This document shows positions 16,401-36,058 of a stretch of DNA of 54,107 bases, one piece after another (the stretch's first letter is position 1; each line of letters opens with the position of its first letter). A program made the translations under genes and the position numbers. This DNA is from Phanerochaete sordida (Eukaryota; Basidiomycota; Agaricomycetes; Polyporales; Phanerochaetaceae). The stretch lies in the NCBI GenBank assembly GCA_019973155.2, contig BPQB01000130.1, positions 1 to 54,107 of the forward strand, written 5' to 3'. Below the pieces are notes generated by a model, which had not been told where the DNA came from, did not search any database, and saw nothing but the letters and a program-made list of their open reading frames with translations.

Positions 16401-16528
16401 GTTTGCCTCCAGACCGCTGATTTTTGCCACTAAAAACATAACTTAATAGTGTGTGTCAAAAGCACAGAGAGTGTAGCGTACTTGGCAATCTTGGTGCTGG
16501 TAGTGTTCTTTGTAGACATAGTAGGCAT
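13404..16528 (-). CDS. AT-hook, many-exon DNA-binding protein of unknown function
   Basis: Reads from ATG 16528 (MPTMSTKNTTST) to TAA 13404 through roughly 16-18 small exons with introns of about 50-70 nt; the first junction after 16320 looks like a GC-AG intron. The N-terminal half is acidic and basic and contains three AT-hook cores: PRGRPSK, PGRPRK and RGRPPK, near 16145-16165, 16005-16025 and 15885-15900. These bind the minor groove of AT-rich DNA. Serine/acidic linkers follow. The C-terminal half is better conserved in style: MEVSAHAAHIEVALRHFKI, APVFCGAVNMMTANPKDYF, AIQLAFSDIHLYRLAGFAG, then DLREYVQGSLSSNKIDVRT and FGLVVVASP. I do not recognise this domain. The product is probably nuclear. 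The exact exon set is tentative, and one possible 51-nt intron near 14140-14190 keeps frame either way. Confidence 0.72.
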
Positions 16529-17142: not shown

Positions 17143-18096
17143 ATGGAGGAAGTGATCTTGAGCGCACAAGGCTACGTTACAAGCAAGAATCTCCCTCCTG
17201 TTCACAGTCGCAAGCAGTGAGTGTAGCACACAAACCTATAGAACCAGTTAACTACAACTTCTACAGGCTCAGCAGAAACATTCAACACAGCAACCAATCG
17301 GTGGACATTACAGGGCTAGGCACGGAAGTGTTTGATAAGTATATGCAAGCTCTGCTTGCTGTTCATCACGTTCTTTCTTCCCACCTGCCTGCGGAGTCTT
17401 TGCAGCCTGTTGTGACCCGCTCAGAGAAGGGAGACCTGATTCTGTCATCACATAACCGGTACTACACCTTGCAGCAAGACATTCAAGATGCCATCATCGA
17501 CTTTGACAAGGTCATAGACCCTATGGGCGTACTGCATACCAACAAGCCTGTTGATGCAGAGTACACGGAGGACAACAAAGTGGAGTATTTTGAGAGGCAC
17601 ACAGATGTCTCTGAGTAAGCAGACATCTCTGCCTTGCACTGAGGCAGCTTTATGGCTGACTGTGTAACCGTCAGAACACCTGCATACACCACCATTTCTC
17701 CGAACATGATCCAGCTTGGAGATCTGGTTGAACTACAATTCACTGTTCGCGCCTTCCCGTTTGGAAGTGGAAAGTACAAGATGGTACTTCAGCTACGTAC
17801 TGTGGCTGTTCTAGATCGTGCAGCAGAAGAGGTGTGGCTTCCATCACGCTCAACCATTGTATGTGCTGATTAACTATCAGGATCTTATTCAACTGCGGCT
17901 ATCAAGTATGAAGGAGGAGGCGCTGAAACCAAAGGCCACTAAACGCAAGACAGGATATCGGAATACCATGGACGAAACAGAGTACAAATTCAAGAAACTC
18001 AAGCTCGCAGATGGCAACAGAGAGGACGGAAATCAAGGAGAGGTAGAAGAGTCCACGAAAGGAAGCAGTGAGGATCATATGGAGACGACTGAGTAG
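17143..18096 (+). CDS. Conserved-type hypothetical protein, 273 aa
   Basis: Exons 17143-17216, 17267-17614, 17648-17831 and 17881-18096 join in phase. The second intron would be only 33 nt, which is short, so the model is weakest there; without it the frame stops at TAA just after VSE. The protein starts MEEVILSAQGYVTS. Its clearest segment is a beta-rich block, IQLGDLVELQFTVRAFP then KYKMVLQLRTVAVLDR, followed by a lysine-rich tail (KPKATKRKTG). I recognise this style of block from other Agaricomycete hypothetical proteins but know no function. It converges with the minus-strand gene at 18409-19119. Confidence 0.6.
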
Positions 18097-18408
18097 AAAC
18101 ACTGAATACACATAAGCTGAGAGCAAGGTTTCTTAGACAAACATGTATCCATGCATTGCAAGATAAGAACTTACTGCTAAGCATTGCACAGAGTAACGCT
18201 TTCCCAGGATTCAGCTCCTATGGTAGTCAGTGACCAGGACGACGCATTTCCCTTCAGCAAAAGAATGAGAAGAGATCTCTGCTAGGAGTAGCCAATATAT
18301 ATCACCTGTAAAGATGGTGCAGACGGAGGAGAGGGTGCTCCACCCCAAACTGTGCCAGACAAAATGTAATGCTGCGCAGGATATGGCAACAGTGGTCTTC
18401 CTAAGACA
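18097..18408. other. Intergenic between convergent genes
   Basis: Nothing recognised beyond the 3' ends of the flanking genes. Confidence 0.45.
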
Positions 18409-19119
18409 TTAGGTTGCAAAGAAGGAAGGGGAGAGGGACTTCTGATGAACGTAGGCAAGCTGCACCAAGCTTTGCAGAAACAGTTCAGTCAAAGTGTAAC
18501 TCCGTGTGAAGAATGACGTAGACGCACCAGCAACCTTCTGAGCATACCTCGCACATGTCCAAAGTGATTGATGTGCCATGTACCAAAGTAGCTTTGGACC
18601 TGACAGATCTACCTCTCTCCTTCCCAAGCTCAGAGCCACCAGCTTAACATCATCCGCACTCCCTGAGAATATAGCAACGGTGACAACAAGGTAGCCAGAC
18701 CTTGACATCTTATAAGCTGTAACTTGGCCCACGACCTCTAGCCAGAATTGAGGATGTGAAGGGGTAGATGTACGCCAGAGTGACACGTAATCGCCAATGT
18801 GTATGACATTCTGTTCAGGGGCAGTGGCCAGAAAGGCTGGATTACTCTCCGTCCATGATATGGCCTGGCGAAGATAGACCACGGTAAAACCAGGGCCTGA
18901 CCTAGAAGCAACACTTCTGGACAAGAGTCGCTGGGATGCTGGTGATGAGGCAATGATGTTCTGTACTGTGGTATACTCTCTATAGTTGAGTACATTGATC
19001 TGGGACAAGATAGACGGCCACCAAGTAAAACCTGGTGGCACTGCAGAGATTGGTTGTGAAGAGGGTGGCAGGTGTTGAGAGTGAGGTAAGGACAGTGTTG
19101 AGATAGAAGATGTTTGCAT
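18409..19119 (-). CDS. Short hairpin-bearing hypothetical gene (possible relative of Y1/Y2 N-terminus)
   Basis: An open frame of 236 codons reads from ATG 19119 (MQTSSISTLSLPHSQHL). A plausible intron begins at about 18548 (GTATGC), so the C-terminus is uncertain. The readable core is VIHIGDYVSLWR, then FWLEVVGQVTAYKMSRSG and LVVTVAIFSG. A strand with GDYV followed by a W/V-rich strand loosely resembles a BAH-type module and the GDYVFIRH segment of Y1 and Y2. Two copies of the hairpin family lie inside the frame and encode PGFT each time. Their spacing (119 nt) matches the leader pairs of X1 and X2, so the first 80 codons might really be a leader with the true start downstream. Function unknown. 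Confidence 0.5.
   Translation of the reverse strand: MQTSSISTLSLPHSQHLPPSSQPISAVPPGFTWWPSILSQINVLNYREYTTVQNIIASSPASQRLLSRSVASRSGPGFTVVYLRQAISWTESNPAFLATAPEQNVIHIGDYVSLWRTSTPSHPQFWLEVVGQVTAYKMSRSGYLVVTVAIFSGSADDVKLVALSLGRREVDLSGPKLLWYMAHQSLWTCARYAQKVAGASTSFFTRSYTLTELFLQSLVQLAYVHQKSLSPSFFAT
18877..18897 (-). repeat. GGTTTTACC hairpin, copy 1
   Basis: Sense (minus) arms GGCCCTGGT and ACCGTGGTC around TTT. Eight of nine positions pair, two as G-U, with one C-U mismatch. Lies within the frame of the 18409-19119 gene. Confidence 0.7.
19017..19039 (-). repeat. GGTTTTACT hairpin, copy 2
   Basis: Sense arms GCCACCAGGT and ACTTGGTGGC around TTT: ten pairs, one of them G-U. It is the longest stem of the family and is 119 nt upstream of copy 1 in the same gene. 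Confidence 0.8.
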
Positions 19120-19387
19120 TGCAAGAAAGGATAGTGTAAATGTAAAGAACGTAGTGGCTGAACAAGGAGGAAATGAGTGTTGCAGACGAAGTTGATATTG
19201 AATCAGGCGCTGAGGTTAGAGTAGCGCTAAAACAAGAGCGTCAAAAGCAGAGCGCTTTGACCAGCGCTTGAATGTCACCCATCGAGCAAATCACAATAGT
19301 GATATATAGAGGTGACTAGCATACTGACTTGTGTAGCTACGTATAGTACAGGAGATGAAATATTGCAGTACACTGCTATGGAAATGT
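19120..19387 (-). promoter_or_regulatory. Upstream region with AGCGCT cluster
   Basis: Between 19206 and 19275 there is a dense cluster of AGCGCT-like sites (GGCGCT, AGCGCT, GAGCGC, AGCGCTT), 90-155 nt before the ATG of the short gene. A similar cluster precedes the F-box gene at 40725. Confidence 0.4.
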
Positions 19388-22300
19388 CTATAGTCCGGTC
19401 TTGTAGTCAACTTCCAGCAAAGAAAACGTAGATAGTGCTCGCTCCAGAGTGACATTGTCCAAGCAAATGGCGTCTTGATCATCCTGGGTGAAGTTATCCT
19501 CTACACAGCGCAAAACCCTCCCTAGTGCCTGAAGAACGTCAGCACTTGTAAGCTCTGTCTTCCATCTTGGTAGTACGCCCAACTTCCTCAATCCTCGAAT
19601 AGCGTTGCCATTCACCTCCAGAATCAGCTCAGCCATTTCCTCCAGTGTAGGACGCACAGCAACACCGGCCTGAATATAATCAGCTACCAGTTGATAGGCC
19701 ACCAGAGGACCAAGCTCCTTGAATGTGTCTTGATGGTGGTAACCACGTTCGCCAGAGAAAAACTTGAACATCGCCAAAGGAGGAATGTTGTATTGACGTT
19801 CCTCAAGGACTCGTGACTCTTGATGTCCAGGGAGAAGGTTTGCCCTCTGCTGTTGAGTGACAGGAAGTTGAGAATTGGGCTGTTCTGGGGCAGCAAGTGG
19901 CTTCTGAGGAGGGATGTGATCATTGGGATCTATGGCAGCGGCGATGAAGTCTTCCCAATCTGATGCAGCTTTCCAGATGTTCTCCACAGGAACTTTGGTG
20001 GGAAAACGACGTGGAGCGGTCCTGCCATATACATCGCGATTGATGAAGTGATCTTCTGTCTTGCTTTCCTTGAATGCATCTCGCTTGACTTGCTCCCAAT
20101 GTTCAGCAGAAGTGAAAAAGACTTGATGATATCTTGTGATGATAGGGGCACCAAAGGTAAACTTTCTGGCCATGATGGCACTGAACACCCCTTCACGAGA
20201 TGCAATGTGATTATTGGAGAAGGGGCCTGGATCGGAGCTCTGCAACACATCCAGAGATGGAAGGGCTTCCAAAAAGGGGAGATAGGCATCTAGGTCTGAG
20301 TGAACCTTGGAAAGCAGGGAATCTTGAGAAAGATCTGGTAGCGTCTTGGACGTAAGTGGTAGAAGGTGCAGCAGGAAATGACCAAAGCGGATGATGTTGT
20401 TGTTGATCCATGCAGATGGGTCCATGGAATTCACTTCTGGCATCTTCACCACTTCGCTGAGAGCAACAACACTTGCGTATTCCGTGGATGATGAAGAGAA
20501 CACAGGGTGGGTCTCAAGTTGGTGAACGAAAGGGACAAAGGTGGATGGCGATACGGTAACAATACCTCGAGAGAGAACATTCCCCTTGAGGTATTGAAAA
20601 GCATGGAAGGTGGCAGGAAGGTAGAAAAGCCCACTACCAGTGTAGGAGTATAGGATGGAGAGAAATCGAGCTTTGGCATACAGCAGTGGTTCATCTGGAA
20701 ATCCAAGCCAGCGAGGCAACAGTTGCATGAGATGATCTGTTGCTTGGGAAAGAATGCCGCTCTCTCCTAGTACTGTTTTCTTGAACTTCAGTGTGACTTT
20801 GTCGGCTTTGCTGGATAGCGCTCCACCAGCAGCATAGTCTGCAGGATCATAGCTGGCGTTGGTTTGCTTTGTCTGGATGTTCCTGTACACAGCACGTCCA
20901 AGCCGATAGTACCACTCAGGTTTATCAGATTCGTCTTCGTGTATGCCGTCAATGATCTTGTCGACGAAGCCCTCCAACCACAGGTAAGCCATCATATAGG
21001 TCGTCAGGTAGTTGCCTCTCTTGATATTGGCCCATGTTTCCAGAGCGCTTGCAGATAGAGTCAGGCTCTCCAGCTGTTCCCAGGTATGGTGGAACCGCGC
21101 AACAGTTTCTGTGTCATATCGTTGCACTGTAAACATGCTGCGCAAGGAGGACCACGAAGTCTCTGATGACGATGAAGGCAATAGGAGGACTTCTCCTGTC
21201 TTGGAATAGAGGACAGCGTGCTTGATGTCTTCAATGTAGCTGGAAATGTCTGGCAAGGCAGATGGCAATAGCTTTTGCAAGTAGGCTGATGCAGTAATAA
21301 GACACAAATATACAGAGCTTCTTGTCTGTAAACTTACCGCAATACACTACACTGCTTGAGCCCTCATCGGAGTCCTCTGGTCTGGGCGGAGAAGGTACGG
21401 ATACTTCTGTATGATATTCTGCTGCTTAGAATCTGAAATGCACAAGAATTGCAAAGTGATTACCTGAGCGCGGAATCCCTAAAAGCCTATGGCTTCGCCG
21501 TTGTTGCCTCTGTGATTCACCAACAGATCGGTTTACTTGGTCTAGCTTACGCTCTGACAAATTTGTTAGCCAGCTTCAGGTAAATTGGTAATTAATTACT
21601 CTTGCTGAGTTCGTCAGAGTCTTCCTTGTCTTCCTTACGGCTGCTGTCGTCTCTGTCATGGACTGGCTTACGTTCTGATGTAGCTTGTTAGCCAGCTTTC
21701 AGTACATTGGCGATTACTTACTCTTGCTGAGTGGGACAGAGTCTTCTCTGGATTCCTCACCGCTGTCACGGTCGCTGTCTTCCCTCAGCTTACGCTCTAA
21801 TATTTTTTATTAGACCACGTTAAGAACCTTAATAATCACTCACTCTTGCTAAGTGGGATGGAGTCTTCTTGGTCTTCTTCGTCGCTGTCACTGGGTGATG
21901 CACTCCTGAGCTTCTTCCTGTTCTTGGCTTCCTCTCCCTTGCTACTTTCCTCTTCCTCGCTACTTTCCTCTTCCTCAACACTCCCCTCTTGTTTCTCGTC
22001 TTCTTCTTCTTCTTCTTCTTCCTCCTCCTCCTCCTCTTCCTCTTCCTCTTCATCACTTCGCTGATCATTCCTGCTGTTCTTAACAGGATTGACACTGGTG
22101 TTCCTCTGTCCTTCCTTTGCCTTCTTGACAGACTGAGAGCTTGTGGAGGAGCTTCGAGATGAACTTCGAGAGGATGAGCTTTGAGAAGGGCTGGGCCTCT
22201 TCTGACCTTCTTTGTGTTCGTCATCTACTGGAGTCTTGCCTCCACTTCTCCCTCTGTCTTCATCGGCAGTATCTCTCTTCATGTGGTCCTGGCTGTCTGG

Positions 22301-24410
22301 ACCATTTGGCTCGTCTGCTGCAGGTGGTAGATCGTTGCCAAGAAAGAAGCGCTTTCGTTCAAGACAAAATGTGCGCCAGGATGCAGTAGCCTTCACCCTC
22401 CGAGAGAATGCAGGTGAAGGTGAGTCTGAGAACTGTCGGAGGCTGGGAGCGTATTCCCAAGGGGTGGGAGAAATGGATGAATCACCGTCTTGCATAGTGA
22501 TGGCTTGGAGGATAGCTTCTGTGTCAATTGCAACATTGGCAGAAGGAGGTAAAGTGGCCAAAGACTGAACCATGGAAGACAGAGAGCCTCGGACGACTTG
22601 ATTGAACGTAGACTGGTTCTGGGTACGCAGTGGAGGGGGAGACCGGGGAATGCAGGATTTACCATCTTCCATGGTAATGGCCTGAAGAATGGAGTTGACG
22701 TTGACATGAATATTGAAGGAGGGAGGCAAGGCTGCCAAGGACTGAAGCATGGAAAACACAGAGTCTCTGACAACTTGATTGACTGCAGAAAGATTCTGAG
22801 TAGGCAATGGAGATGTGCTGCCTGCATCAGGCAGTGGACGTGCTGCACTTTACAGCATGTGAGTACTAATCTTTATGAGGGAATGAAAAGACAATGCTCA
22901 CGTCATTAGATGTGCAGCGTGCAGCACATCAGGAACAGCAGAAGAAGACGCATCCAATGGCTGAGGTAACACAGGAGGCCCAGAAGAAAAGTCATGAGAA
23001 TAGACAATGGAGTAGCGATAGGCCCAGTTGCACTTGACAGGCTCCGAAGTAAGAGAGAGGGGAGGAGTTAGAACGTGGTGGTGCAGGCTGGAGTAGTTGA
23101 TGCCGCCATAGCCAGTGAGCTCTACAACGAATCCGACTTCAGGGAAGTACATAAAGCCTGGATGTACTTGCTTGAAGGGCACATTTGATCCATAGACCAT
23201 GGTGACCATAGCACCATACTCGTCATCTGGGTCAAAGCTCCGAGAAGGTGTCCGGGTACCAAACACATGGAGGTCTGTTAGAGAGCTGAAAGCGATCTTC
23301 GCAGAAGTGAACTGAGGCTCAGAGAGAGCACCAATACGTGGAGCATTCAGAATTGATAGCCTAGAGCGTATTGGACCACGGCAGTTGAATGGAATACTGT
23401 CACTAGTGATCGCTGCCGCAAGAGACGATAGCTGCAGGTAATTTAGCAATCATGATATCTGTCTAGGTGGACAGAGGCCTGTACCTCAATGATCTCTGCA
23501 TGGTATTGCTCAACAGCTGTCGGAGTATCAGAAGTATTTTGTGTCCAAGCGTCCCAGATAGGGTAGGCACGGTGTTCTTCTATGGTTGGTCCCTCTGAAG
23601 AATGCACCATTCTTTCGTATTCCGTACCACCCACTATAGCATCTTTCACAGAGCGAGGAAGGGAAGATCTGCGCAGGGGCTGTGGACCTAGAACCAGGTC
23701 ACAGAGTGCTCTGCTTGTAGTTTGCATAGTGGGGTTGGATTTAGTACTGTACACCACAGCCTTAGGCCAGAGAAACAAGAATATAAGAACAGGTTGGCGT
23801 ACACGAGCTGGACAACGTCTGCAAAGTGGAAGTCTTTCATTGCAGTATCTTCAAGCTGATCCTGGTCACGAATGAACAGGTAGTCTCCCTTGTTGAGAAA
23901 TCCTAGACCTAAGACAGAAAAGAACAAGCCCACTTTAGTAGCAGCGATGACGAAAAACAATAAAACTCTAGTGCAGGAGGTAAAACCTGATGCAGCGTAG
24001 AGGTAGTGCTCTTGAATGTGAGAGGTAAAACCTCACACATCTCCAAGCTGAAGGAGAATGGACCAGCAGGCAAAGCAACTCTTACCAAGGTTGACACAGT
24101 CCTTCACACTTTCCACCGTCCCATCGCTCAACGTCCTTTTCAACACCTGGCTCAGGTACTCCTGGGTCAGAGGCCAGACAAGGACAATGTGCCGTCCATG
24201 TTCCCGCCGAGGACTAGGAACCAGAGGGTGTTTGGAAGAGACCCAAGCTGTGGTGAAACCGGGGCGATGGTTCTTTTCGCGGAGGGGGAGGTCCAAGCAC
24301 ATCTCCAGGTCAGAAAACCTGGGGTGTTTCTTGGAAATCAGAAGGGGCAAGTTGTAAGGAGGCAAGGCAGCCATATCAGATGAGTTCGAGGAGCTGCAAG
24401 GAGGTGGCAA
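19388..24410 (-). CDS. Y2: giant multi-exon paralogue of Y1, degenerate 2OG-Fe(II)-type fold
   Basis: Ten exons join in phase: 24410-24086, 23908-23805, 23760-23485, 23431-22902, 22847-21844, 21796-21722, 21674-21600, 21553-21464, 21421-21338, 21285-19388. They total 4461 nt (1486 aa). One junction uses an AAG acceptor (22848), and the acceptor at 21422 rather than the nearer CAG links the front and back halves. Segments: GRHIVLVWP and NKGDYLFIRDQ (BAH-like); a beta block with FPEVGFVVELTGYGGINY, a histidine at LHHH and YRYSIVY, resembling the dioxygenase double-stranded helix. The first metal site seen as HTD in Y1 is missing here, so Y2 is probably not catalytic. Then come a duplicated LQAITM unit, serine/acidic stretches with a long glutamate run, and a C-terminal helical domain (WLEGFVDKIIDGI, GPLVAYQLVADYIQAG). 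Intron 1 carries two hairpins. Confidence 0.72.
21555..21843 (-). repeat. Tandemly duplicated mini-exon plus intron in Y2
   Basis: Two consecutive 75-nt exons (21796-21722 and 21674-21600), each starting after a phase-1 A with A(G/A)CGTAAGC and ending AGCAAGA, are separated by introns of 45-47 nt that are themselves similar. The end of the preceding exon and the start of the next carry the same motifs, so a unit of about 122 bp has been copied. Y1 lacks it. Confidence 0.75.
21999..22051 (-). repeat. CTT/CCT microsatellite encoding a glutamate run
   Basis: A run of TTC, CTC and CCT triplets on the plus strand is read on the minus strand as about 18 consecutive acidic residues in Y2 exon 5. 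Confidence 0.9.
22472..22801 (-). repeat. Internal 177-bp duplication in Y2
   Basis: Two units of about 50 residues, offset by 59 residues, share NQVVR(D/G)S, MxQSLAxLPPS and ILQAITM(E/Q)DG. Y1 has a single diverged unit (LLLQAITMRSGDS), so the duplication arose in Y2. Confidence 0.85.
23973..23993 (-). repeat. GGTTTTACC hairpin, copy 3 (Y2 intron 1)
   Basis: Sense arms GCATCAGGT and ACCTCCTGC around TTT; seven of nine positions pair. It is the weakest member. It lies 64 nt before the 3' splice site of Y2 intron 1. Confidence 0.55.
24018..24038 (-). repeat. GGTTTTACC hairpin, copy 4 (Y2 intron 1)
   Basis: Sense arms GTGTGAGGT and ACCTCTCAC around TTT; eight of nine pair. Lies 47 nt after the 5' splice site of the 177-nt intron 1 (24085-23909). 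Confidence 0.65.
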
Positions 24411-24479
24411 GGATAGAGATGGTGGAGGAAGACAAGAGGAAAGCGGGAAATGGAGAGGTGACCGCTAGAGGAGTGCTTA

Positions 24480-24552
24480 GTCAAAGCTGTTAACGTACGG
24501 TTTCCTGCGTCGCCATCAAAGATGCAGGAAACCATACGTTAAGCTTTTTGAC
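24480..24552. repeat. 32-bp inverted repeat upstream of Y2
   Basis: Arms 24480-24511 and 24521-24552 (about 26 of 32 matching) flank a 9-nt spacer. Both arms share the inner block GGTTTCCTGC and outer GTCAAA. It lies 70-140 nt before the Y2 start, in the otherwise gene-free stretch 24411-24711. It may be a leader stem-loop or a small foldback element. Confidence 0.7.
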
Positions 24553-24711
24553 TCATCCATCAAACTTTGTTGATCCAGGCGCCCAACAGGTGCTACGTCA
24601 TAGGGCGCCAGTTCCACGCTGTCGGTCTTTCATAATTAAGTTGTGTACAAGCTTACTGATCTATGTACAGAAAGATGCAAGTTCCAAAGGTGTATACTGA
24701 CTAGGAAAGAT

Positions 24712-27700
24712 CTATCTTGAAGGCTGCAGCACATTATGCAATCTACTGTACTTACATAAGGCATGTTCTATCATAATCCAGTCCAACTCTATCTTAGCAC
24801 ACACGTCTGAGTCTAGGTTACTCTGTAGGTACTCCATCAACGTCTCCAAGGCATGAAGTACATCCTGAACTGACACTGCTTGTAAACCTGGAGGCAGCAG
24901 ACCAAGAAGGCGAAGGCCTTTCAAAGCACCTTTGTTCAAAGTATGAACAAATGCGGCGATCTCAGACAAAGAAAGTGGAGGGATAAGGCCAGCTTGAACA
25001 TAGTCCGCGACCAACAGGTAGGCAGTGAGGGGTCCCACATTCCTGAACTTGTGGTGTGGGCTCATTCTTGGGGACTTGGGATGAAGACCCATGAGAAACT
25101 GATACACAGATGCGGCGGAAGGGGTGGGGGAATCTTGGAGAAATGGCCCCCAGGCTGCGGAAGCCTTCCACAAATCCTCTATGATGCTTGGGTCGCGATG
25201 ACGATTGGATGTTCCATAAGCTCCCATGTCAGCGAAGTAAGAGGGAGGTTTCTTGTCTTCATCCTTGGCCTTGTCATAGAACTTCTTCCACGCTTCAAAA
25301 CTTAAGAAGTAGACTTGTCCATCGTCCAAAACTACAGGAGCACCGTATGTCACAGCTCGGAAGACCAGGGCACTGAAAAAGGCTTCTCGACTGCATAGTA
25401 ATTGAGGGTCGTAGGGTCCAGGTGATGCGGCTTGAGCGATGTACAGAGAAGGAGCTCGTTGGCGGAATGGAAGATAGAAGTCTGCGTTACCAGCCACTTG
25501 TGCAACCCAGCCAACTCCCGTGCTAGTTGTCACAGGGCCAGGTAGGTTAAGCAAAGGCAGGAGCGATCGGATGAAGTGGAGGAATAAGCCCAAGTGTTTG
25601 TCTACGAGGGGGGACGGCACTGTGTACCATTGTGCGTATATAGACTCCAGCTTGCGAAGATCGTTGTGTTGGTCTGTGCCTGCTCTTGCAATAGGGAGCG
25701 TCTTGAGAGCAGCGATATAGTTTTCAAATGTTGATCGTCGCACCACCTTGAGGAAGCGACTGGGAAGAACCTGAAGATGTAGGGCTTGAAAGGCTGTGTA
25801 GGTTGCTGGTAGGTAGAGTATACCATGGGAAGTGTATGACAGGGTGATAGACAAGAACCGTGCCTTGGCGTAGGCAAGTTTGTCCTTGGGAAAGCCTAGC
25901 CATTCCGCCAAGATGACCATGAGGTGTTCAAAGACTTCTGCGAGCACCTCTGGTTCGGTGTAGACCTTCGCTTGAACAGCAACCTGAACAGAGGAAATGT
26001 CTGGGATGCTCATGAGAGATGGGGAGTATTTGGCGGGACTGTACGTGATCCGTTGATGTTTGTTGGTTTTGAGATTGGCACAAACATCCCGAGCGAGATG
26101 ATGATACCATTGATCGCGATGCTTGTCAGATATTCCTTCCATAGCCTTGTCCACCAGCCCCTCCAGCCAGTGGAACGCCAGCTGATAGAAGCCAAGGTAC
26201 TCGTGACGTAGGATGGCGGATTGAATCTCTGCCTTCGCTCCGTACTTGGCTAACTTGTCTGCGAGTTTCCAATAGCCCGGAAAGCTGGTCAACGTGGCTA
26301 TGGAGCAGCCGGCGGTGGGAAGTGTGATCAACAGAGAAGCCAAGATGTTCTGTTCCGTGGCAGTAACAACAGCATCTGAAGCAGAAATGTCTGCTTGATC
26401 GCTAAGGGCGCTAAGTTGTGATACCGCTGTGTCCAGGCTCTTGGACAGAGCTTGCAAATATTCTGGTGTAAACGTGAGCAAAAAACGCGGCGTAGCATAA
26501 TGTGGATCTCACTGCCGCGCTTCAACTCCGTGGCCATTATGCCAAGTTCATCGTCCGAATCTATCATGTCACACATTAACTTTACGCTCACGTCATTTAT
26601 TATCTTTTATGACTAACCAGACTGCGAACTCTGCCTACGTTCACTACGGCGAAGAGGAGTGGTACTGTTCCCACTGACAAGCTCAGGTGGTCCCGGTATG
26701 TAACGAGCCCTGGTCTGCTGTAGTGTATCCAGGACGGAGGACGAAGCAGGCACATTAACGTGCCCGCCCAACGCCTTAGCGACTTGACGTTTTTCCTTGC
26801 CAGTGAGAGGCGCAGCTGTAGCGCGGAGCCCTTGAAAAATATTAAGACGACGGTCCAGTATATGTGCAACGCCAACAAACGTACGTTTCGTCGCTGGAGC
26901 CCCTGAGGAAGGACCTCGCTTTCGTCCGCGACCGTTCGAATTTCCACCTGGGTTCTTGGTCAGCGGGGTGGAATACCATGAGAGCTGCACTCACTTCTAT
27001 CTTTCTTAGCAGTGCTAGCGTCGTCGGACTTATTCGCTTCTTCCTCCTCTGGGGGCGTGTTCTCTTCATCGGCGGGTGACAGGAGCTCATCACGGGCTTC
27101 CCCAAGCACCAACTGTGCTCCTTCCTTTAGGCTACCATGATGATTGGGGACAACAGCCGTTCGTGCCTTGCAGAAGTTCTGCCACCGTTGGTTGACGGCC
27201 ACTCGATCGTCAGGTGGGGAGGTGGATGGATCAGACGTATCGAATTGAGTAGTCCTTGGAGCTTCTGGCCAAGGTCCTGCGTGAAAGCGGCTGTCGCCAG
27301 ATCGCATGGTGATAGCCTGAAGCAGTAGGTCGGTGTCGACTTGCACGTCCCAAGTCTTTGGCATCTGAGCTACGGCCCACACGACGAACATAACCAATGC
27401 CCGCGCAAGGAAGATGAACATGGACTTGGTCTCCATGATCGCGGTTCCGTCTCTGATGAAGGAGGCCGGTTCGGAATTGGCAATGCTTGGACGAGCTCTC
27501 CTAACCACAACGTAAGTACGCAGCTACAAGGAGATGACGCCGGCGGACGAATGACGTACTCGAACAGCTGCATGTCAGGTCTAACGGCGAACATTTGCGT
27601 GGAGCCGGAGTTGCTGAAGGGCGTCGGAAGAACGGACATGACCGCTTTGCCGTTCAGGGGACGAGCGTGAGGGTAATGTACAAGAACAAGGCGATACGCC

Positions 27701-29297
27701 CAAGGCTGGTACGCTTCTGCTGTCAACGGCACGGGCGCGCGTCCGCCGTGCCAGTTACGACCGCAAAAATTAATTGCTCCAAGTCCACCAAGCTTGACAG
27801 CGAAGCCTACTTCAGGGAAGAACAGAGCACCGGGGTCGTACTGGTCGGGTAGATCAGAACAGAACAACATAGATGTAACCGCGCCGTCGGAGTCTGAGAA
27901 ATCGGTGTGATAACATCCAAAAGCACCAAGTTGAGTTGCATGTTGACCTAGCAAGTACGGAAATCAGCGTAAGCAAAAGGGCTAGCACATCACCACTCAC
28001 TAGATGAACCAGAAGGCAGCCCTACGTCTATGCCGATCTCGTCAGGCGTGGTAGGTGACGAAGCGGTTTGGGATGGATGAGATGGCGAAGCGGACGAAGA
28101 TGCACCACCTTGGTACGAATCGGCGGCGGAAATGTTTACTTGGATGGCAGTAAACGCTATGTTCTCGTCCGAGCCAAGGTGAGGTAGGTTGACGGCAGAC
28201 GATTGTTCTCGAATGAGCTTCTGGGCCTTAACAGGTATGGTTTTCCAAGCAACCATGGCGACACGAGACGAGATCTAAAAAGCAGAAGGATTACAGGCTG
28301 GCAGAACGCGCATGAATTAAATCAACCCACCTTCAGAATCTCTGGTCGTAACTGATTATTTTCGGGCAAATCCTCTACCGACTCGGGCAGTGGCTCAAAG
28401 CGACTATTTTTCCCCCACCGCACAGGGCTATAAATCGACGTTGGGAACTGGTCCATAGCGCAAAGCTGGTACGCTCTCGTGTTAGGCTGCACGCTGTCGG
28501 GGTTTTCTGTACGCTCGAAGTGTGTGCCGCCTTTGAAAGGACCGTTCGGAGGACCAGTCGGCCTGAGTGGGGAACGAAGATTACGTTCCCCGAGGATCAT
28601 GTCTCGAACGTAAACCATGTCCACGTTGAGCTCTCGAGGAAGAATTCGCCTATACAACGTAAGCAATAGTATACGAAAAGCGAAGGAACGCCTTACTCAA
28701 AGTCGACGAGATTGCAATAGTACCAGTCTTCCTCTGCTTTTCCAGGATCTTGAGTTAGGTGTCGGATGAAGACGTAGTCTCCAGGACTCAAATAATCAAT
28801 GCCTACGTCAAGTACAGACATCAGATCGGGCCAAAAAGTGTCGACGACAGGCACGCGACCGTATTCTAATACTGGAAGTAAAACCTCGAGTAATAGCGGA
28901 TGAACAGCACAGTAGAGATAGTAATGTCCGAAGTAAAACCTCGAACAATACACCATACAAGTGCGGAAGGAACCAGGGACGGGGAAACGTGAGGGACCAA
29001 GGACATACCAAGCGCAGAAAGATCTTCTCGCCAGCTGGGCGCTCGCTCTTGCGACACTCGAGAATTAATGCGTTTGAGGTAAGCTGGCTCAGGCGACCAC
29101 AGCAGAACGTAGTGACGGCCGTACTCGCGATGTTCAGAAGGGACAAGAGGATGGTGGGGACGGATCCATGGCGTGGTCATGCCGGCCTTGCCTGCTCGAT
29201 TCGGAAGGTCCAGTCGACTGCAGAGGTCGGTGAAACGTTGGTGTGCCTCGAACACAATAACACCGGATGTATGAAAAGGGTCTGATGCGCTCTCCAT
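24712..29297 (-). CDS. Y1: giant multi-exon protein with 2OG-Fe(II) dioxygenase-like domain
   Basis: Nine exons join in phase: 29297-29009, 28802-28697, 28649-28331, 28274-28001, 27947-27560, 27500-26995, 26947-26618, 26560-26513, 26462-24712. They total 4011 nt (1336 aa). Intron 26617-26561 removes an apparent stop and joins two long frames. The N-terminus MESASDPFHTSG is followed by YGRHYVLLWSPE and SPGDYVFIRHL (BAH-like). Exon 5 reads GCYHTDFSDSDGAVTSML, FFPEVGFAVKLGGLGAINF, NWHGG and YRLVLVHY. The order H-x-D, distal H about 50 residues on, then R fits the metal and 2-oxoglutarate sites of TET/JBP- and prolyl-hydroxylase-type oxygenases. That is my inference from pattern alone. A basic/acidic linker and a conserved helical C-domain (WLEGLVDKAMEGI, GPLTAYLLVADYVQAG) follow. 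The upstream leader and intron 1 each hold two hairpins. Y1 and Y2 are tandem paralogues. Confidence 0.75.
28871..28891 (-). repeat. GGTTTTACT hairpin, copy 5 (Y1 intron 1)
   Basis: Sense arms ACTCGAGGT and ACTTCCAGT around TTT: one G-U and one C-C mismatch. 68 nt before the 3' splice site of Y1 intron 1. Confidence 0.7.
28926..28946 (-). repeat. GGTTTTACT hairpin, copy 6 (Y1 intron 1)
   Basis: Sense arms GTTCGAGGT and ACTTCGGAC around TTT: all nine positions pair, two as G-U. Lies 62 nt after the 5' splice site of the 206-nt intron 1 (29008-28803). Confidence 0.8.
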
Positions 29298-29727
29298 GAT
29301 GCTGGACTGCCAGGAAACGAGAGTGTGGACGGGAAGTGGACGACCTGGAGAGACCAGAGAAACGAAGGCAGAAAAGTCCTGAGGTGATTTGTCATTTCAT
29401 TTCACGTACGCCGCGACACCATGGTGTCCTGGTGTACGTGTAACGAAAAGAGTAAGCAAGGAAATCGCTCACTCAGGATAGGCTTGCTTACGGGGTATGG
29501 AGTGTCGGGAGTCGGGCGTTGAGCAACAAATGGGGAAACAGGTCGGCCCAGCCAATCATTGCAGGCCATAAAACCAGGGCAGACCAATGTACAGTCAGCG
29601 TAGCAATCGATGTAGGATGAAGGTGCAAGCAGAGGCCAGAGCAGGAAGAATGGAGGTACCGACGACCTGGAATCGATCGAGGCATGAAAAGTGTCTGCAC
29701 AACGGACAGAGTGGAAATGCGATACAA

Positions 29728-29750
29728 GCTGAGTGGTAAAACCACTCAGC
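29728..29750 (-). repeat. GGTTTTACC hairpin, copy 7 (Y1 leader)
   Basis: Sense arms GCTGAGTGGT and ACCACTCAGC around TTT: ten Watson-Crick pairs. 29 nt downstream of copy 8. Confidence 0.9.
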
Positions 29751-29779
29751 ATGTCCACAGAGGAGAACAGAGCAGCCAT

Positions 29780-29800
29780 CTACGAGGTAAAACCTCGTAG
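29780..29800 (-). repeat. GGTTTTACC hairpin, copy 8 (Y1 leader)
   Basis: Sense arms CTACGAGGT and ACCTCGTAG around TTT: nine Watson-Crick pairs, with a stem sequence different from all other copies. Confidence 0.9.
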
Positions 29801-30112
29801 AAGGTGGAGGGAGGGAGGAGGAACGACGGTGGCAGAAGGACTGTCCCAATAGGGAAGTTAGAGCTCGCCAACAAAGCACGTGGCCACAACCTCGGACACC
29901 GAGGATAATCGGCCAACAGGTCCGGGCCATGTGGACAGAGCGCTTGCACGCAGGCTATGATGTCACAGACTTTTCACGTGACTGACCCACCGCGCGAGGC
30001 ACACGTGTTCAGAGCGCTCACCCCCCTTTCAGCGTCTGGACTTCTCTTCTCCATCCCACCTCCCACCGCCTCCCGCCGCCTCCCGCCGCCTCCCGCCACA
30101 TCGTCTGCCATT

Positions 30113-30133
30113 GTGAGCGGTTTTACCGCTCAC
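30113..30133 (+). repeat. GGTTTTACC hairpin, copy 9 (Z leader)
   Basis: Arms GTGAGCGGT and ACCGCTCAC around TTT: nine perfect pairs, about 90 nt before the Z start and 138 nt after the CACGTGAC box. No second copy was found in this leader. Confidence 0.9.
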
Positions 30134-30221
30134 ATTGAGCTCCACGACAATCGTCATCAACACCGAACTAATCACGTTCCTCAAATCGTCACCCCGGCCA
30201 CTCTTTGCTTCGCTATCCACC

Positions 30222-31426
30222 ATGTCTTCGCCCACCTCCAACACCACCAACCTCATCCCGCGGCCTAGGAACGTATCGTCATGTCGTTCAGCAAGCGGCG
30301 TGTCTGATTTTACCGAGGAAGAGCGAAAAAAGTTCAAGGTGCGCGCGGAAACCTGGATGCCGACGCCACACGGATTGACTAACTATTGTCGTACAGTCGC
30401 ACTCTCGTATCCAATATAAAGCATGCTTAAACCCGCAGGAACTATGGGACGATCAGGAGAAAGAAGCAGTCGATTCACTGATCAAGAACGTACGTTCTCG
30501 ATTTGCGTACACTATCGCATGCTAATTGGACACCAGATGCGTTCAGCTTGCCCGTTCCTGGAGCGTTTCGTCGACAGCTGGCCAGTGGAATATGTGGCGC
30601 GCACCTGGTTAGCGGCAAGGCGAGCTAAAGAGGGAAAGGCCGCCTCGCGAGGCGCCAAGTCTAAACGCAAACAAGCGTTGAAGCGCGGCCGTTCTGACGA
30701 TGTCGTGTCGGGACCGACCGAAACCAACGAGTCCTCGGAGAACGATGAGTTGGATTCCAACGCCGAGAGTGAGGTACGCCGCGCGCACATGCAATACTCA
30801 AAAATACCATGCTCATATACACCCAGGACAACATTCCTATCAAACGTCCTTGCCGTACGCCGCGAATTCGACGTGCGACGTCCAACGAGGTACCTGAGCC
30901 CACGAACGTTGCTGCCACTTCGCCAGTACGCGAATCAGCCAGTTTCGCCGCACCCGCGCGTCAGGACAAACCTACGGAGTCGCGCGTCGCCACGCCAAAG
31001 CGCCAGCTTGCGCCCTCCACGAGCGAAGCGTCTCGTGATAAGCCCAGTAATAGGGAGGAGGTGCGAAGCGTTTATGAACGCGATGCTGTTCGCCGATACT
31101 TACACCAATACTAGGATAAAGTTGACCGGGATCTTCAGCGCGTGTCGGCCGATCGTTCTCGTCGTCCGTCGCCCCCGTCTGTGGAGGAAGCACCCGGAAG
31201 CGCATCACCCAGAGCGTTCGTTCACACCTTCCTCGCCAGCATTCTCCCTGCGCCCCCTGCGTCTGACGTTGTGGAGCGATTCGTCGCCTGTGGGTTCCTG
31301 GACGAAGCTCATTTCCGCGCGTTCGCGACACTGCCGCCGCAAGAACGAGATGCATTTTTGGTGAACGACATTGGGGTCAATAAGCTATACAGTCGACTGA
31401 TTCAACACGCTGCGAACAAGTTCTGA
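30222..31426 (+). CDS. Z: 316-aa serine/basic-rich protein of unknown function
   Basis: Five exons, 30222-30338, 30439-30489, 30537-30773, 30827-31060 and 31115-31426, all phase 0, give 316 residues. The N-terminal part is helical and charged (FTEEERKKFKELWDDQEKE). A basic stretch follows (KSKRKQALKRGR), then long serine/proline/arginine-rich linkers (RSRRPSPPSVEE). The C-terminal 80 residues look folded (FVHTFLASILPAPP, VVERFVACGFLDEAHFRAF, RDAFLVNDIGVNKLYSRL), with a short helical repeat feel reminiscent of SAM-type modules, although I cannot assign one. The basic tracts suggest a nuclear protein. It is divergent from Y1 and shares its intergenic box; its leader carries one hairpin and the same promoter layout as X1 and X2. 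Confidence 0.78.
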
Positions 31427-31436
31427 GGTCATTCCC

Positions 31437-31494
31437 GCTCGCCTGTAATTTCTTGCTCACCTGTAATAACGTCTTGCTCGCCTGTAATTTCTTG
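31437..31494 (+). repeat. Short tandem repeat downstream of Z
   Basis: Three imperfect copies of GCTC(G/A)CCTGTAAT follow the Z stop within 60 nt, probably in its 3' UTR. The rest of 31495-31680 shows nothing. Confidence 0.7.
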
Positions 31495-31684
31495 AATTCT
31501 GTACGCTAGAATCATGTATATACTGTACTACTACACAAACGTTACGATGCGGTTATGCTACGAATACGAAGTCGTCGAATGACCAGCTGCGAGAGCCAGA
31601 GAGCATCCAGGCAGTATAAAGATAGCATGATACAGCTACCTTGTGTGTGGGTTGCTCTGACGTTACCGTGCACTCGATATAAGG

Positions 31685-31738
31685 CACGTGACGCATGAGC
31701 CACGCGCGCGTGAAGCGCCCTCTGAGCGTCTAGAGTTC
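31685..31738 (+). promoter_or_regulatory. X1 promoter module
   Basis: CACGTGAC at 31685-31692 is followed by CATGAGCCACGCG and CTCTGAGCGTCT. The same ordered blocks occur before X2 (35542 on) and, more loosely, before Z (29975 on), 126-138 nt upstream of the first hairpin in each. Confidence 0.65.
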
Positions 31739-31810
31739 TCGTCCTACCCTGCGACCTCTCTCTCCTGCCGCAGATCACTCCTTTCGCCTCCTACCTGTCT
31801 ACCCATCATT

Positions 31811-31831
31811 GTGAGCGGTTTTACTGCTCAC
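31811..31831 (+). repeat. GGTTTTACT hairpin, copy 10 (X1 leader)
   Basis: Arms GTGAGCGGT and ACTGCTCAC around TTT: nine pairs, one G-U. Confidence 0.88.
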
Positions 31832-31958
31832 ATTGACCTTCACCGCCGGCATACTCTTGTCAAGTCCTTCCAGGTCATCAAACTCGTCTGCCAGGCCTTC
31901 TCCGTCCCCAAACGCCAGCACAGTCAACGTCTCCGCCACCTACATCGTCTCTGTTGCT

Positions 31959-31979
31959 GCAAGCGGTTTTACCACTTGC
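31959..31979 (+). repeat. GGTTTTACC hairpin, copy 11 (X1 leader)
   Basis: Arms GCAAGCGGT and ACCACTTGC around TTT: eight pairs and a single C-A mismatch, the only C-A in the family. Followed by ATCGCTC, as in the second hairpin of X2. A probable 5' UTR intron (32142-32192) separates it from the coding start. Confidence 0.8.
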
Positions 31980-32201
31980 ATCGCTCATTCTGTGGTGTAC
32001 ACAGTAGCACGCACACACGCTCAAGTCGCACCAAACGACGGCCGAACGCCACACCAACGTCTAACACGCCACAAGCAACCTGACGTCCTCCTATCCCTTT
32101 CCACGGTAGTACAACACAGGCGTACGACGTTCTTTCGATAGGTACGTCGTACGAATAATCTAAACGATACAATAACCTGACCATTCACGCAGCTCCAACC
32201 C

Positions 32202-35071
32202 ATGGCAGGACACAGTGCGTTAGCAGGAGCGTTCCCAGCGAACGAGCGTATCGTAAGTAACGCACATAACGTACTACCTACAGTACAGTAGCTCACATGT
32301 ACTTGCAGCTATTAAGCAGACACGCAGAGACGAAGCAGCTCCTGATCTCCTCTTGCGAGGACAATTGTTGCACACTGTACACGGCAGGTATTCATACTGC
32401 CGAGCTGGAGCCTCCAGCGAATGGAGTGTACGATGACACGCCGAAGAACCCGCACAAGTTAACCCGCATGCATAAACTTGACGACCAAAGCTTCCACTTC
32501 GCGTTCATGCCGATAGGCGCATACGCTCCCTTCCGCGCCCTACAATTCAGCTACACCAGCCTGCCTATCGTCGCCGAGCCGTTCAACGGTCTTCAATACT
32601 ACTGGTTGGACAAAGACCTCATTCCACTATGGCAAGCCCTGGAGGAAGCTATCGACGTCACTATCTACGACATCTGCCAAGCATGCAACATCAGCGTGCC
32701 GTTGAACTACAACCCTGCCCGAGATTTTCGCCCGAGTCGATATAAATACAACCGTGGACATCGGGACAGCTACAAAGCGCGGCAGGCGGCATACACAGCG
32801 CTTCGCGCGTTCGACGCGAGAATGTGTATGTTGTCGTACGTCTACTTCTATGCCGCGAAACAGGGGTGGGATGCGTTCGAAGCGCTAGGGTCTCTGTCTC
32901 GAATCCCTACTGAGTTCGTGCAAACGATCAAGTCCTCATGGATCTGTAATCCAGACTTTCCACGCGTCGGGGTGTACATCGAGAGCGCGACGCCTGCGTT
33001 AAGTTCCTCAGACATGCAGTGGCGGAAGAATCTTTGGCCTTTCCTGCTTGTCCACGCCTTGCCAATATGGATCGCTTACGACGAGAAGCCGTTCGTAACA
33101 AAAGATTCGTTCTGTCTCGCTTTCCTGCCTACCGACGAAGAAATAGAACGTACCATGGCATCTGCCGCGCCCGGGCTCCCTCAAGATTCAAGAGTACTGG
33201 CGTCCACCGCACCGCCGCCACCGCCCAAGAATCTTTCTGTCTTCGCTTGGCTGCAGAATCGTTTGGCTCAACGCGCTAGGCATCTCGCTCAGGAGTCCGT
33301 AGGACAACGTATAGCTCGTGAGCAGCGCGAAGAAGAGCACCGGAAACACATGATTCCAGGTCGCGCGGGCCCACGCGTCTTTGAATGGGAGTACGACGCG
33401 GAGCTGGACGACTGGCTGCGGGTGTCGATCCCTCGCAGCGACCGCAGCAGGATCGAAGGACTTTGGGAAGAGACACTGGAGTCTATGCGCGCCTACGACG
33501 GCGTACGCAACGAATGGGACGTGTATAGTGGCCTGCACCCATCCGTTGATCCAAAGAATCCATACGCGTTCATCGAGAACGACAACGAGTTCGAGTACGG
33601 CTCCGACGCTGTTGTCGACGACAACGACCTCGACTGGGAGAAAGAACAGCAGCGCATGATCAATCGTGAAGCTAGCCACTTCCACCAACAGCGCACAACA
33701 CGCAGCCGCTCCCCACAACGCCGCACGGACGGACAGTCAAATGGTCGGTCTCGGACTCCACCGCGAACGCCAGTCAGCGACCGAGTAGCCCAGCACCTGC
33801 TCGCAGCGACACAGCTTCCTGCCGCTGCTGCAGACACAGCATGGACTCTCGAAGACGCAGAGATGGTGGCTAGAGATCGTTACGCTGTCCCTTTCCAGTC
33901 CGGCTGGGACACATCTCCAACAATCACTCCCCTCACCCCAGATCACGTATGGGTTCTCAATGTCATTCGTATCACCAGCGCGCCAAACCAGACCGTGCGC
34001 CAGCAGTTCATAGACAATCTGAGCAACTGCGTCCACAACATTGTCGAAAGAAACGCGCCGCCGTCCACGCACGCAGACTTCGGCATCGGCAGCCTGCTGC
34101 ACGAGCGGTACAAGTGGAGGGCCACACCAATTCCTCTCGACAAATGGGTTAAGCCGACATCAATGCGTCTCACTGCCCCTCGCGAACAGACCCCTCGCGG
34201 CCAGGAACCAAGCATCGCCGGCGACCAGCCGTATCTCGTTGAGCACATCGACAGCTCCCACGCCAACACAAGCTGGCGTCTCGTGTTGTTCGGTGCGGCG
34301 GACACCTCCCACGCCATTCGAGCAGCTGCAAACGAGAACATCGAAGAGAAGCTTCAGCTTGCAGCACGGCTGGCTTCCATCGGGATACCTTTCCGTACGC
34401 TTGCCAAACGGGACGCTAAAAGCGTTCTCCTCGAGCGTGCCGGAGAGCGTCGAATCGGCCTGGGCTACCAAAATCCCAACTACGTTTTCACCGGGGCGGA
34501 TTACGCTCGCTACGAGCGCCGCCGAGACGTACTGCTGGCTATGACTCAGGGTCGCGAAGCCGGGCTTGCAGGCGGTATTCTGGCGCGTTTGGCAGCATCC
34601 ACAGTGTACATAGAAGACATATTGCAAGGCCCCTCGTTCACGGCAGCCACGGCCACGTTCGCTATCCTTGACGACGAGGAGTACGTCGACGATACCCTCA
34701 CTGAGAACGAGGTAGACGTAATATGCGGAGTTACGCGTATTTTTACTCGTATGTTACAACCATTCATTAAACAGGCCTACACTAACCACGCAATGCTGCT
34801 AGATTGGAGCGAGCACTCGAACGTCAAGATCGTGTCCTGGTGGCCCACGCCAAAGCTGTGGAAACGGTCTGGTCAAGATGTCGGCTACTGGACGGCTCAG
34901 AACGAAACCTGGTTCCAGAACAGGCTCACTGACATACGCGCAGGAAAAGCGAAGCCACTCACCGCTGCTGCCTGGAAGTCGACCCTCAAGTTCTTCAAGG
35001 ACACTCCGCACTTCGAACGGAACCTCGCACACTTCAGTCGACAGGTATTGCAAAGCAGGGAGTCGAGCTGA
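32202..35071 (+). CDS. X1: 919-aa lineage-restricted protein with RS-rich linker
   Basis: Exons 32202-32252, 32309-34748 and 34803-35071 join in phase. The start MAGHSALAGAFPANERI parallels MQTSVLGQFPPNERK of X2, including the intron position, which supports this ATG. The first 330 residues form a dense, probably helical domain (WQALEEAIDVTIYDICQAC, DFRPSRYKYNRGHRDSYKA, FDARMCMLSYVYFYAAKQG). A proline-rich hinge, a block WEYDAELDDWLRVSIPRSDR, an acidic stretch, and an arginine-serine segment near residue 470 (TTRSRSPQRR, RSRTPPRTP) follow. The second half has PDHVWVLNVIRITSAPNQ, RRIGLGYQNPNYVF and SWWPTPKLWKRSGQDVGYW. No known family was recognised. The RS-like linker would suit a nuclear, RNA-linked role, but that is inference. 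X2 is a tandem paralogue. Confidence 0.82.
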
Positions 35072-35324
35072 GAGAACGGGAAAGCAAGCAGTTTACGTAC
35101 AATATATCGCGTTGTGGCATGTATCATAACATCTGTAAGACTGTATGGAAAGACTTCTTGTACTGCAGTTGCGTTTACTGTACTTCTATGACTGCAAAGG
35201 CGGGCACAACTCACAGGCCCCTAAAACTGTCTTTCAGAAGCCTGTGACACTGGGCCACACAAACCATGGTCGCTGTGTGTCCAAGTCAACCTTCAGCCTG
35301 CCTGTGGCGATAATTTTGAGGACC

Positions 35325-35496
35325 TTGACGTAGGTTGACGTAGGAGGAGTAGCAGCCAATATGAGCGGTAAAACCGCTCACAATGACGGTCGGGGTGGCG
35401 GAAAGCGGCGGGACCGATGGGCGGTAGGAGAGGGAGGGCGGAACCCACGACGAGAAGGGCAGACGCTGAGAGGTCGCGTCGCTAATGAGTCACGTG
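35325..35496 (-). repeat. Inverted leader repeat, arm 1
   Basis: Reverse complement of arm 2 over about 170 bp with only a few substitutions and one 17-bp gap. It includes a GTCACGTG box, the AGCGTCTG block and one hairpin, so it is a complete leader module facing left, towards the 3' end of X1. No minus-strand coding region follows it. Confidence 0.9.
35361..35381 (-). repeat. GGTTTTACC hairpin, copy 12 (arm 1)
   Basis: Minus-strand arms GTGAGCGGT and ACCGCTCAT around TTT: nine pairs, the outermost G-U. Identical to copy 13 by inverted duplication. Confidence 0.85.
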
Positions 35497-35541
35497 TAAG
35501 ACGCGTCTCGCGTCTATGACGTCACGACTCTTCGACCTTGG

Positions 35542-35730
35542 CACGTGACTCATCAGCCACGCGACCCATACGCGCCCACCCCCTCTCAGCGTCTGCCCTT
35601 CCCGTCGCGGGTTCCGCCCTCCCTCTCCTACCGCCCATCGGTCCCGCCGCTTTCCGCCACCCCGACCGTCATTGTGAGCGGTTTTACCGCTCATATTGGC
35701 TGCTACTCCTCCTACGTCAACCTACGTCAA
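35542..35730 (+). repeat. Inverted leader repeat, arm 2 (X2 promoter/leader)
   Basis: Starts with CACGTGACTCATCAGCCACG, continues through CTCTCAGCGTCTG and a pyrimidine-rich stretch to the first X2 hairpin, and ends with a duplicated CCTACGTCAA. The 45-bp spacer to arm 1 contains TGACGTCA. Near identity of the arms implies a recent copy or gene conversion. Confidence 0.9.
35674..35694 (+). repeat. GGTTTTACC hairpin, copy 13 (X2 leader)
   Basis: Arms GTGAGCGGT and ACCGCTCAT around TTT: nine pairs, the outermost G-U. Confidence 0.9.
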
Positions 35731-35809
35731 GCGCGTAAACCCAACGACCGCCTACTTCCATCTCGGTGTGGTTCGGACGCCGCCGCATCCTGCCCGGTTT
35801 CTAGTCGTT

Positions 35810-35830
35810 GCGAGCGGTTTTACTGCTCGT
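35810..35830 (+). repeat. GGTTTTACT hairpin, copy 14 (X2 leader)
   Basis: Arms GCGAGCGGT and ACTGCTCGT around TTT: nine pairs, two of them G-U. 115 nt after copy 13 and followed by ATCGCTC, as in the second X1 hairpin. Confidence 0.88.
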
Positions 35831-36058
35831 ATCGCTCAAGAGGAAACGGAGCCGCCCCATACGCGTCACGCGTCGCCAACTCTCAGCACAGCACGTCGTT
35901 CTTGAACCGACGACCGCTGTCTACGCCACCCACATTCCGAATTACATCCGCGTGAAACCCAGGCGACGTGAACGATATTCTATCATACAATCTGTACGTA
36001 TGTAAGTTGCATATACCAACAGAGGGCACTGACAAACTCCCTCCAGAAGCCCAACGAC

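Follow-up and report, generated by a model that had tools for sequence, protein, structure and literature searches.

Sense-strand hairpins whose loop differs as a set between two apparent haplotypes of a hyperdivergent locus in Phanerochaete sordida

Contig BPQB01000130.1 of the basidiomycete Phanerochaete sordida, by protein match strain YK-624 (C130, whose 54,107 nucleotides (nt) form the whole stretch analysed, here called the window) carries a family of short hairpins in the putative leaders, modelled introns and one open reading frame (ORF) of a hyperdivergent block of genes. We found that their loop differs as a set between C130 and a second contig, C74, the two of which look like haplotypes of one locus: it reads UUU in 15 of 15 copies on C130 and UUC in 7 of 7 copies on C74. 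This difference is our main point and is invisible from the window alone, on which a preliminary description of the family had been based. The genome analysed is an unphased assembly of 40.8 Mb in 222 contigs; the published short-read assembly of P. sordida has 341 contigs and 41.2 Mb, and haplotypes are not discussed in the genome paper (PMC8530024). The C74 DNA examined amounts to 24 kb, to which every C74 hairpin count refers.

The hairpins are real. The preliminary description listed 14 stem-loops, and all 14 sites carry the exact core GGTTTTAC(C/T) (GGTTTTACY), for which 100 dinucleotide shuffles of the window gave a mean of 0.50 sites and a maximum of three. That the core is simply a common genomic word was rejected, as GGTTTTACY lacks genome-wide enrichment (154 sites, against 386 of the reversed pattern), and the 54-kb C130 alone accounts for 14 of the 154. 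A covariance model of the 14 copies added a 15th (core AGTTTTACT, 28.3 bits) at 15768-15802 on the minus strand, outside the span 18877..35830 to which the family had been assigned. On C74 the model found six hairpins, with a seventh in an intron of the AT-hook-like gene. The motif centres on a UUY triloop closed by U-A, G-C and then G-C, G-U or A-U; further out come seven pairs whose letters vary largely freely, then a U.U mismatch, then two pairs that are most commonly A-U and C-G. The stem thus runs for 10 pairs, the mismatch (in 17 of the 22 copies and in both haplotypes) and two more pairs, so that the hairpin stood as first described but its extent of 21-23 nt did not.

Covariation within this structure is strong. 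When the 14 original copies were aligned without gaps (35 columns, 13 distinct rows), 93.6% of cells paired under the 12-pair structure, compared with a mean of 67.6% in 500 shuffles, none of which was as high; both sides had changed at nine of the 12 pairs (reached by 16 of 500 shuffles), and the covariation score was 0.730 versus 0.231 (0 of 500 as high). Sliding the structure, which served as a second control, left 31-46% of cells paired. The combined alignment of 22 copies (21 distinct rows) yielded 94.0% paired cells versus 69.7% when shuffled and a covariation score of 0.713 versus 0.236, and the double-change cells numbered 62 versus 16.9; none of 500 shuffles matched any of these three values. 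Double changes occurred at 10 of the 12 pairs (reached by 7 of 500). Conserved structure with compensatory changes, as expected of an RNA operator, is therefore present. Rfam 15 gave no match at its gathering cut-off in the window and three further fetched stretches (L046, L047 and L061), and we found no paper on this element in the part of the field that our literature search covered.

Selection on the RNA rather than the DNA, as originally proposed, is supported by this covariation together with a G-U bias, the sense orientation of the copies, and a loop and closing pairs that are kept while the arms vary. Departures from Watson-Crick pairing in the inner 10 pairs of the 22 copies comprise 15 G-U, one C-A and 10 others (14 G-U and one C-A with an identical row removed), and the 11 G-U, one C-A and five others previously counted for the 14 copies were reproduced; because a double-stranded element would be expected to give G-U and C-A about equally, the excess of G-U argues for selection on RNA. 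By placement, seven of the 22 copies lie in modelled introns, two in an ORF and 12 upstream of start codons, and one is an orphan. The sense-strand lock, first noted in the window, extends to all 21 copies with an assigned host, where introns follow hand-made splice models (Y1 and Y2) or a model drawn by eye (the AT-hook-like gene), Z leaders follow deposited start codons, and a leader copy is assigned to the nearest gene start. It holds equally for the nine copies whose host is unambiguous, being in an intron or ORF, namely the 15th window copy (given as 15771), 18883, 19024, 23979, 24024, 28877, 28932 and two on C74. Copies 18883 and 19024, assigned to the short 18.4 kb gene, lie inside its ORF and not in a leader.

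The second haplotype was reached through searches with the Y and Z proteins of the block, which pointed to C74. C74:75001-78000 is 98.3% identical to window positions 7783-10782 over 3000 columns, and the flank keeps 95-99% identity (aligned letters) up to ~14.8 kb, with one ~0.4 kb insertion in C74. Beyond this point, inside one gene, identity drops to 83, 78, 72, 74, 58, 69 and 60% in successive 500-base steps; deeper in the block, whose C74 counterpart spans about 82-101.5 kb, only short DNA matches occur until repeats near 41 kb, and the Y and Z proteins are about 40% identical between the contigs. Both share the order AT-hook-like gene, 17 kb gene, 18.4 kb ORF, Y and Z, to which the window adds a second Y, a second Z and X. 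The left edge thus combines the near-identical flank, sharp drop in identity and kept gene order expected of an allelic locus, and C130 and C74 look like two haplotypes of one hyperdivergent locus, both kept in the assembly. G+C content ranges from 42% to 60% along the window, and in the C74 block it likewise rises to 60% and then falls. In MAT-A, the homeodomain (HD) mating-type locus, homeodomain genes lie near that for the mitochondrial intermediate peptidase. This identity was rejected for the block, given that Peptidase_M3 matches fell on contigs C3 (258-260 kb) and C106 and Homeobox_KN matches on C3 (261-263 kb) and C23, with none of either on C130 or C74. The block is a possible balanced polymorphism separate from the HD mating locus.

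Within each haplotype, a uniform loop sits on varied stems, with arm identity between distinct copies at 43% in C130 and 59% in C74 and core identity at 93-94% within each. The four GTTTCAC cores in the window pair at 3 to 7 of 10 positions and form no family hairpin, and no UUU family hairpin was found on C74. Placement matches between haplotypes in the AT-hook-gene intron, the first Y intron, the Y leader and the Z leader. In the AT-hook-gene intron, two changes separate the stems and loops of the two alleles: T versus C in the loop, and a compensated pair that is A-T in one and G-C in the other. The flank adds one more difference and, judged by eye, no longer stretch of the intron is as well conserved as the hairpin. 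Copying of whole hairpins would make stems alike, so it does not explain variable arms with a uniform loop, and these sequences seem best explained by a shared reader that changed between the haplotypes.

The preliminary description had the family tagging several unrelated genes; a dispersed element of that kind is not supported. As far as four genome-wide patterns tell, the family is confined to one locus and its second haplotype. A further pattern, TN6GGTTTTACYN6A, occurs at 17 places, 11 of them in the window, and the other six form 2 to 4 of the 7 free pairs. All 10 places of CATTN6RGTTTYACYN6ATTG lie in the C130 and C74 blocks and pair at 5 or 6 of 6 (reversed control, 0), while in viral contigs only three of 75 places reach 5 and none 6. 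Allowing any loop (CATTN7GTNNNACN7ATTG) gave 12 places, 10 in the blocks and two elsewhere that pair at 1 and 3 of 7, and ATTN6RGTTNNACYN6AT gave 18, comprising 12 in the blocks with 5 or 6 of 6 free pairs and six others with 0 to 3. Finally, TN6RGTTTYACYN6A occurs at 55 places, with 17 in the blocks; of the 38 elsewhere, 35 pair at no more than 5 of 7, one at 6 and two at 7. For shorter patterns the reversed control outnumbers the pattern, so the argument rests on pairing and not on bare counts; as the patterns demand the core and some flank, divergent members may be missed. In the stretches fetched outside C74 the covariance model gave weak matches only (17.3 bits for a place on C1, and E values of 3.6 and 6.4 for two others), with none at the loci of other Z relatives (C4, C117, C141, C157, C166 and C180; 3-10 kb each, leaders partly covered) or at that of the lone Y relative on C102. 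As far as the patterns tell, well-paired hairpins occur almost only at this locus and its second haplotype. At the level of DNA sequence, none of the outcomes that the preliminary description had named as counting against it (no excess in leaders or introns, no significant covariation, or equal frequency in both orientations) was seen. A place on C3 (6 of 7 free pairs) was excluded from the 22, as was a fully paired UUC hairpin found ~110 nt before the ATG of a long ORF in an element on contigs C109 and C118 that by eye is Ty1/copia-like (L063:4660-4694 and L064:4623-4657, two near-identical stretches), which is either unexplained or due to chance.

These data bear on several other explanations. 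An ordinary cellular RNA-binding protein might accept any UUY loop, with the U/C split reflecting separate descent of the haplotypes. Three facts suit this view: the loops are separated by one pyrimidine transition at a single base, G+C is higher in C74, and some copies are duplicates within a haplotype. We nevertheless judge it rather unlikely: the four matching placements suggest that several hairpins were in place before the haplotypes separated, in which case an identical base change would be needed in each independently, the loop is without exception in 22 copies while the stems vary, and a general factor should have sites elsewhere, of which the patterns show almost none. It is improbable that the hairpins are small mobile or copied elements spread within the block, with the loop as a subfamily mark. 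Their flanks are unrelated on average (26% identity, three columns each side), placements match across haplotypes, stems differ under a constant loop, and no copies were found elsewhere save the doubtful Ty1/copia-like one; this near-confinement to two blocks is not the genome-wide spread of a miniature inverted-repeat transposable element.

Many copies are promoter-proximal and a palindrome is also present 5' of Y2, as would suit a DNA element (palindromic sites for transcription factors, or else a signal for recombination or a cruciform), but double-stranded binding has no need of compensated arm variation, and with nine of nine intron or ORF copies sense and G-U outnumbering C-A by 15 to 1 we hold such an element to be improbable too. 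Selection on an encoded peptide (xxFT, or SGFT as first put forward), for which UUU and UUC would both specify Phe, might account for 20 of the 22 copies being open in frame over 11 codons with similar peptides, for the two copies within an ORF, and for a 205-codon open frame in C74 that spans all three Z-leader copies; five of nine neighbouring pairs are mutually in frame, which raises its probability slightly. It is still very unlikely, given stops in two of 22 copies, seven of 22 in modelled introns and four of nine neighbouring pairs out of frame; moreover, variability does not peak at third codon positions, the T of GGT/AGT is invariant, and both the compensated stem and the loop split would be left unexplained.

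The hairpins lie close to gene starts and within long introns, are sense wherever a host is assigned, and keep their loop while their stems vary; all this fits an RNA operator read by a protein. We give about an even chance to the hairpins being cis-acting operators in leaders and introns that are read by a haplotype-matched factor. They would act on sense transcripts, near 5' ends and in introns of this one locus; an RNA-binding factor would recognise the loop, the invariant closing pairs and the shape of the stem and would control how transcripts of the same locus are spliced or translated. As every copy found on C130 has U as its third loop base and every copy found on C74 has C, the haplotypes probably differ in their factor as well, which suggests that it may be encoded in the block and co-evolve with the hairpins. 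From these patterns we infer transcription of the leaders, the factor, its encoding in the block and its effect.

Several observations weigh against an operator read in this manner. Pfam (E up to 10) matches none of the N-terminal part of Y2, the proteins P0001, P0002 and P0003, the 18.4 kb ORF or the last X exon, and there is no candidate RNA-binding domain among the scanned proteins, a set that lacks the AT-hook-like protein and the product of the 17 kb gene. PDB sequences match nothing for Y2 and gave one match at E 0.15 for Z, and structure models were too poor to help (Y, predicted local distance difference test score 60, best fold match E 0.17; Z, 32). Base-by-base alignment across haplotypes holds for one hairpin pair, the others being matched by gene and position; the C74 homologue of the 18.4 kb ORF, which has two hairpins in the window, gave no covariance-model match; the best match to X in the C74 DNA examined, at E 0.15, is unconvincing; and the G+C content of 0.56 in C74 versus 0.525 in the window block could favour a loop C. 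Nor are 22 copies 22 independent events, as they are partly related by duplication, with two identical rows in C130 and two stems alike in C74. Finally, we infer the haplotype status of the contigs, and a recent segmental duplication around a divergent insert could instead have produced them.

Table 1. Hairpins, introns and gene regions of the window (positions in the 54,107-nt stretch)
Feature	Position	Strand	Basis and context
Hyperdivergent block	14783..40725	.	C130/C74 alignment; sharp left edge ~14.8 kb, right edge approximate
Intron with 15th hairpin	15730..15851	-	GTAAGT...CAG, modelled by eye
15th hairpin, core AGTTTTACT	15768..15802	-	AT-hook-like-gene intron (label by eye); covariance model 28.3 bits; allelic C74 copy
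Hairpin 18883	18870..18904	-	Inside ORF 18409-19119; exact site and covariance model
Hairpin 19024	19011..19045	-	Inside ORF 18409-19119, near ATG; exact site and covariance model
Y1 gene region (5' exons and 639-aa ORF 19388-21307), one or more genes	19388..24374	-	ORFs, protein matches, splice model
Y1 intron 1, 177 nt	23909..24085	-	Hand-made splice model
Hairpin 23979	23966..24000	-	Y1 intron 1; exact site, splice model
Hairpin 24024	24011..24045	-	Y1 intron 1; exact site, splice model
Y2 gene region (5' exons and 589-aa ORF 24712-26481), one or more genes	24712..29297	-	ORFs, protein matches, splice model
Y2 intron 1, 206 nt	28803..29008	-	Hand-made splice model
Hairpin 28877	28864..28898	-	Y2 intron 1; exact site, splice model
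Hairpin 28932	28919..28953	-	Y2 intron 1; exact site, splice model
Hairpin 29735	29722..29756	-	5' of Y2 ATG (29297); exact site
Hairpin 29786	29773..29807	-	5' of Y2 ATG (29297); exact site
Hairpin 30119	30106..30140	+	Core ~95 nt before X ATG (30222); exact site and covariance model
X gene	30222..31426	+	ATG 30222
Hairpin 31817	31804..31838	+	377 nt before Z start 32202 (P0001); exact site and covariance model
Hairpin 31965	31952..31986	+	229 nt before Z start 32202 (P0001); exact site and covariance model
Deposited Z protein P0001 region	32202..35071	+	P0001 start 32202; protein matches
Hairpin 35367, orphan without own host gene	35354..35388	-	Exact site; in inverted duplication
Hairpin 35680	35667..35701	+	371 nt before Z start (P0002); exact site and covariance model
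Hairpin 35816	35803..35837	+	235 nt before Z start (P0002); exact site and covariance model
Deposited Z protein P0002 region	36059..38830	+	Deposited protein start; protein matches

The genes of the block (Table 1) offer few further clues, and none of the scanned proteins could be assigned a function. Among the candidates sharing most words, to which scoring in the protein searches was limited, Z matched two proteins, both from C130, and Y two proteins; no relatives of either were found in the viral contigs. A Z copy at C4:1211984-1213837 is by eye nearly identical to the C74 Z protein, with residues 1-234 of Z lacking a listed match. A SAM-like domain suspected by eye in X was dropped, its last exon being without a Pfam match, as was an oxygenase-like motif suspected by eye in Y, whose spliced N-terminal part matches neither Pfam nor PDB. 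Pfam matches below the cut-off were left unused: HMUDK_hel (E 0.024) in one of five Y relatives, CDC27 (E 0.0016) in ORF 21836-22807, F-box-like in ORFs 39832-40725 and 9795-10868, and DUF6332 in ORF 13849-14373. No TET/JBP or KDZ transposase match, as a TET/JBP-KDZ transposon cluster would show, appeared among the scanned block proteins, which represent part of the genes. The other three modelled introns of Y2 are 47, 56 and 53 nt long. Palindromes or inverted repeats lie 5' of each Y gene in both haplotypes (29385-29458; by eye, 24491-24545 and L046 ~7650-7715), and the orphan copy 35367 sits in an inverted duplication (35324-35473/35582-35731, 99% identity).

Comparable systems share some of these traits. 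The iron-responsive element, read by the iron regulatory protein, is likewise a short sense-RNA hairpin with a fixed loop and variable stem in the leaders of one regulon's genes, although its loop, mismatch and genes are others, whereas the candidate operator here is nearly confined to one locus and has a haplotype-specific loop. In the Smaug/Vts1 recognition element and the constitutive decay element of Roquin, the latter with a triloop, loop and stem shape are also read while stem letters are free, but their loop consensus differs and the mRNAs that carry them are many and unlinked; the scanned block proteins gave no match to a SAM or ROQ domain. Like mating-type and het loci, this one passes from near-identical flank to alleles of ~40% protein identity; it is not the HD locus and shows no allorecognition domain among the Pfam matches of the scanned block proteins. 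We know of no hairpin operator in which the letter that sets specificity switches in all copies together from one haplotype of a locus to the other, nor of a hyperdivergent fungal locus with RNA elements that split by haplotype. Candidate structured motifs in fungal 5' untranslated regions and introns include covarying hairpins, some thought to act on splicing or translation; they were found by comparing species (PMC5640933), in contrast to the many copies within one locus seen here, whose loop splits by haplotype.

The hairpins mark a hyperdivergent locus that is separate from the HD mating genes. If a haplotype-matched factor does read the loop, the two haplotypes would provide a natural pair of orthogonal RNA-protein switches, and the locus would allow a direct look at how the gene products of two nuclei could stay separate within a single cell. 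Tentatively, the hairpins may form an RNA code of an ancient balanced locus in which each haplotype's factor reads only its own hairpins, UUU or UUC, so that the nuclei of a dikaryon, which share one cytoplasm, would each regulate their own copy of the locus. If the code itself is true, self/non-self discrimination would be written in mRNA leaders and introns.

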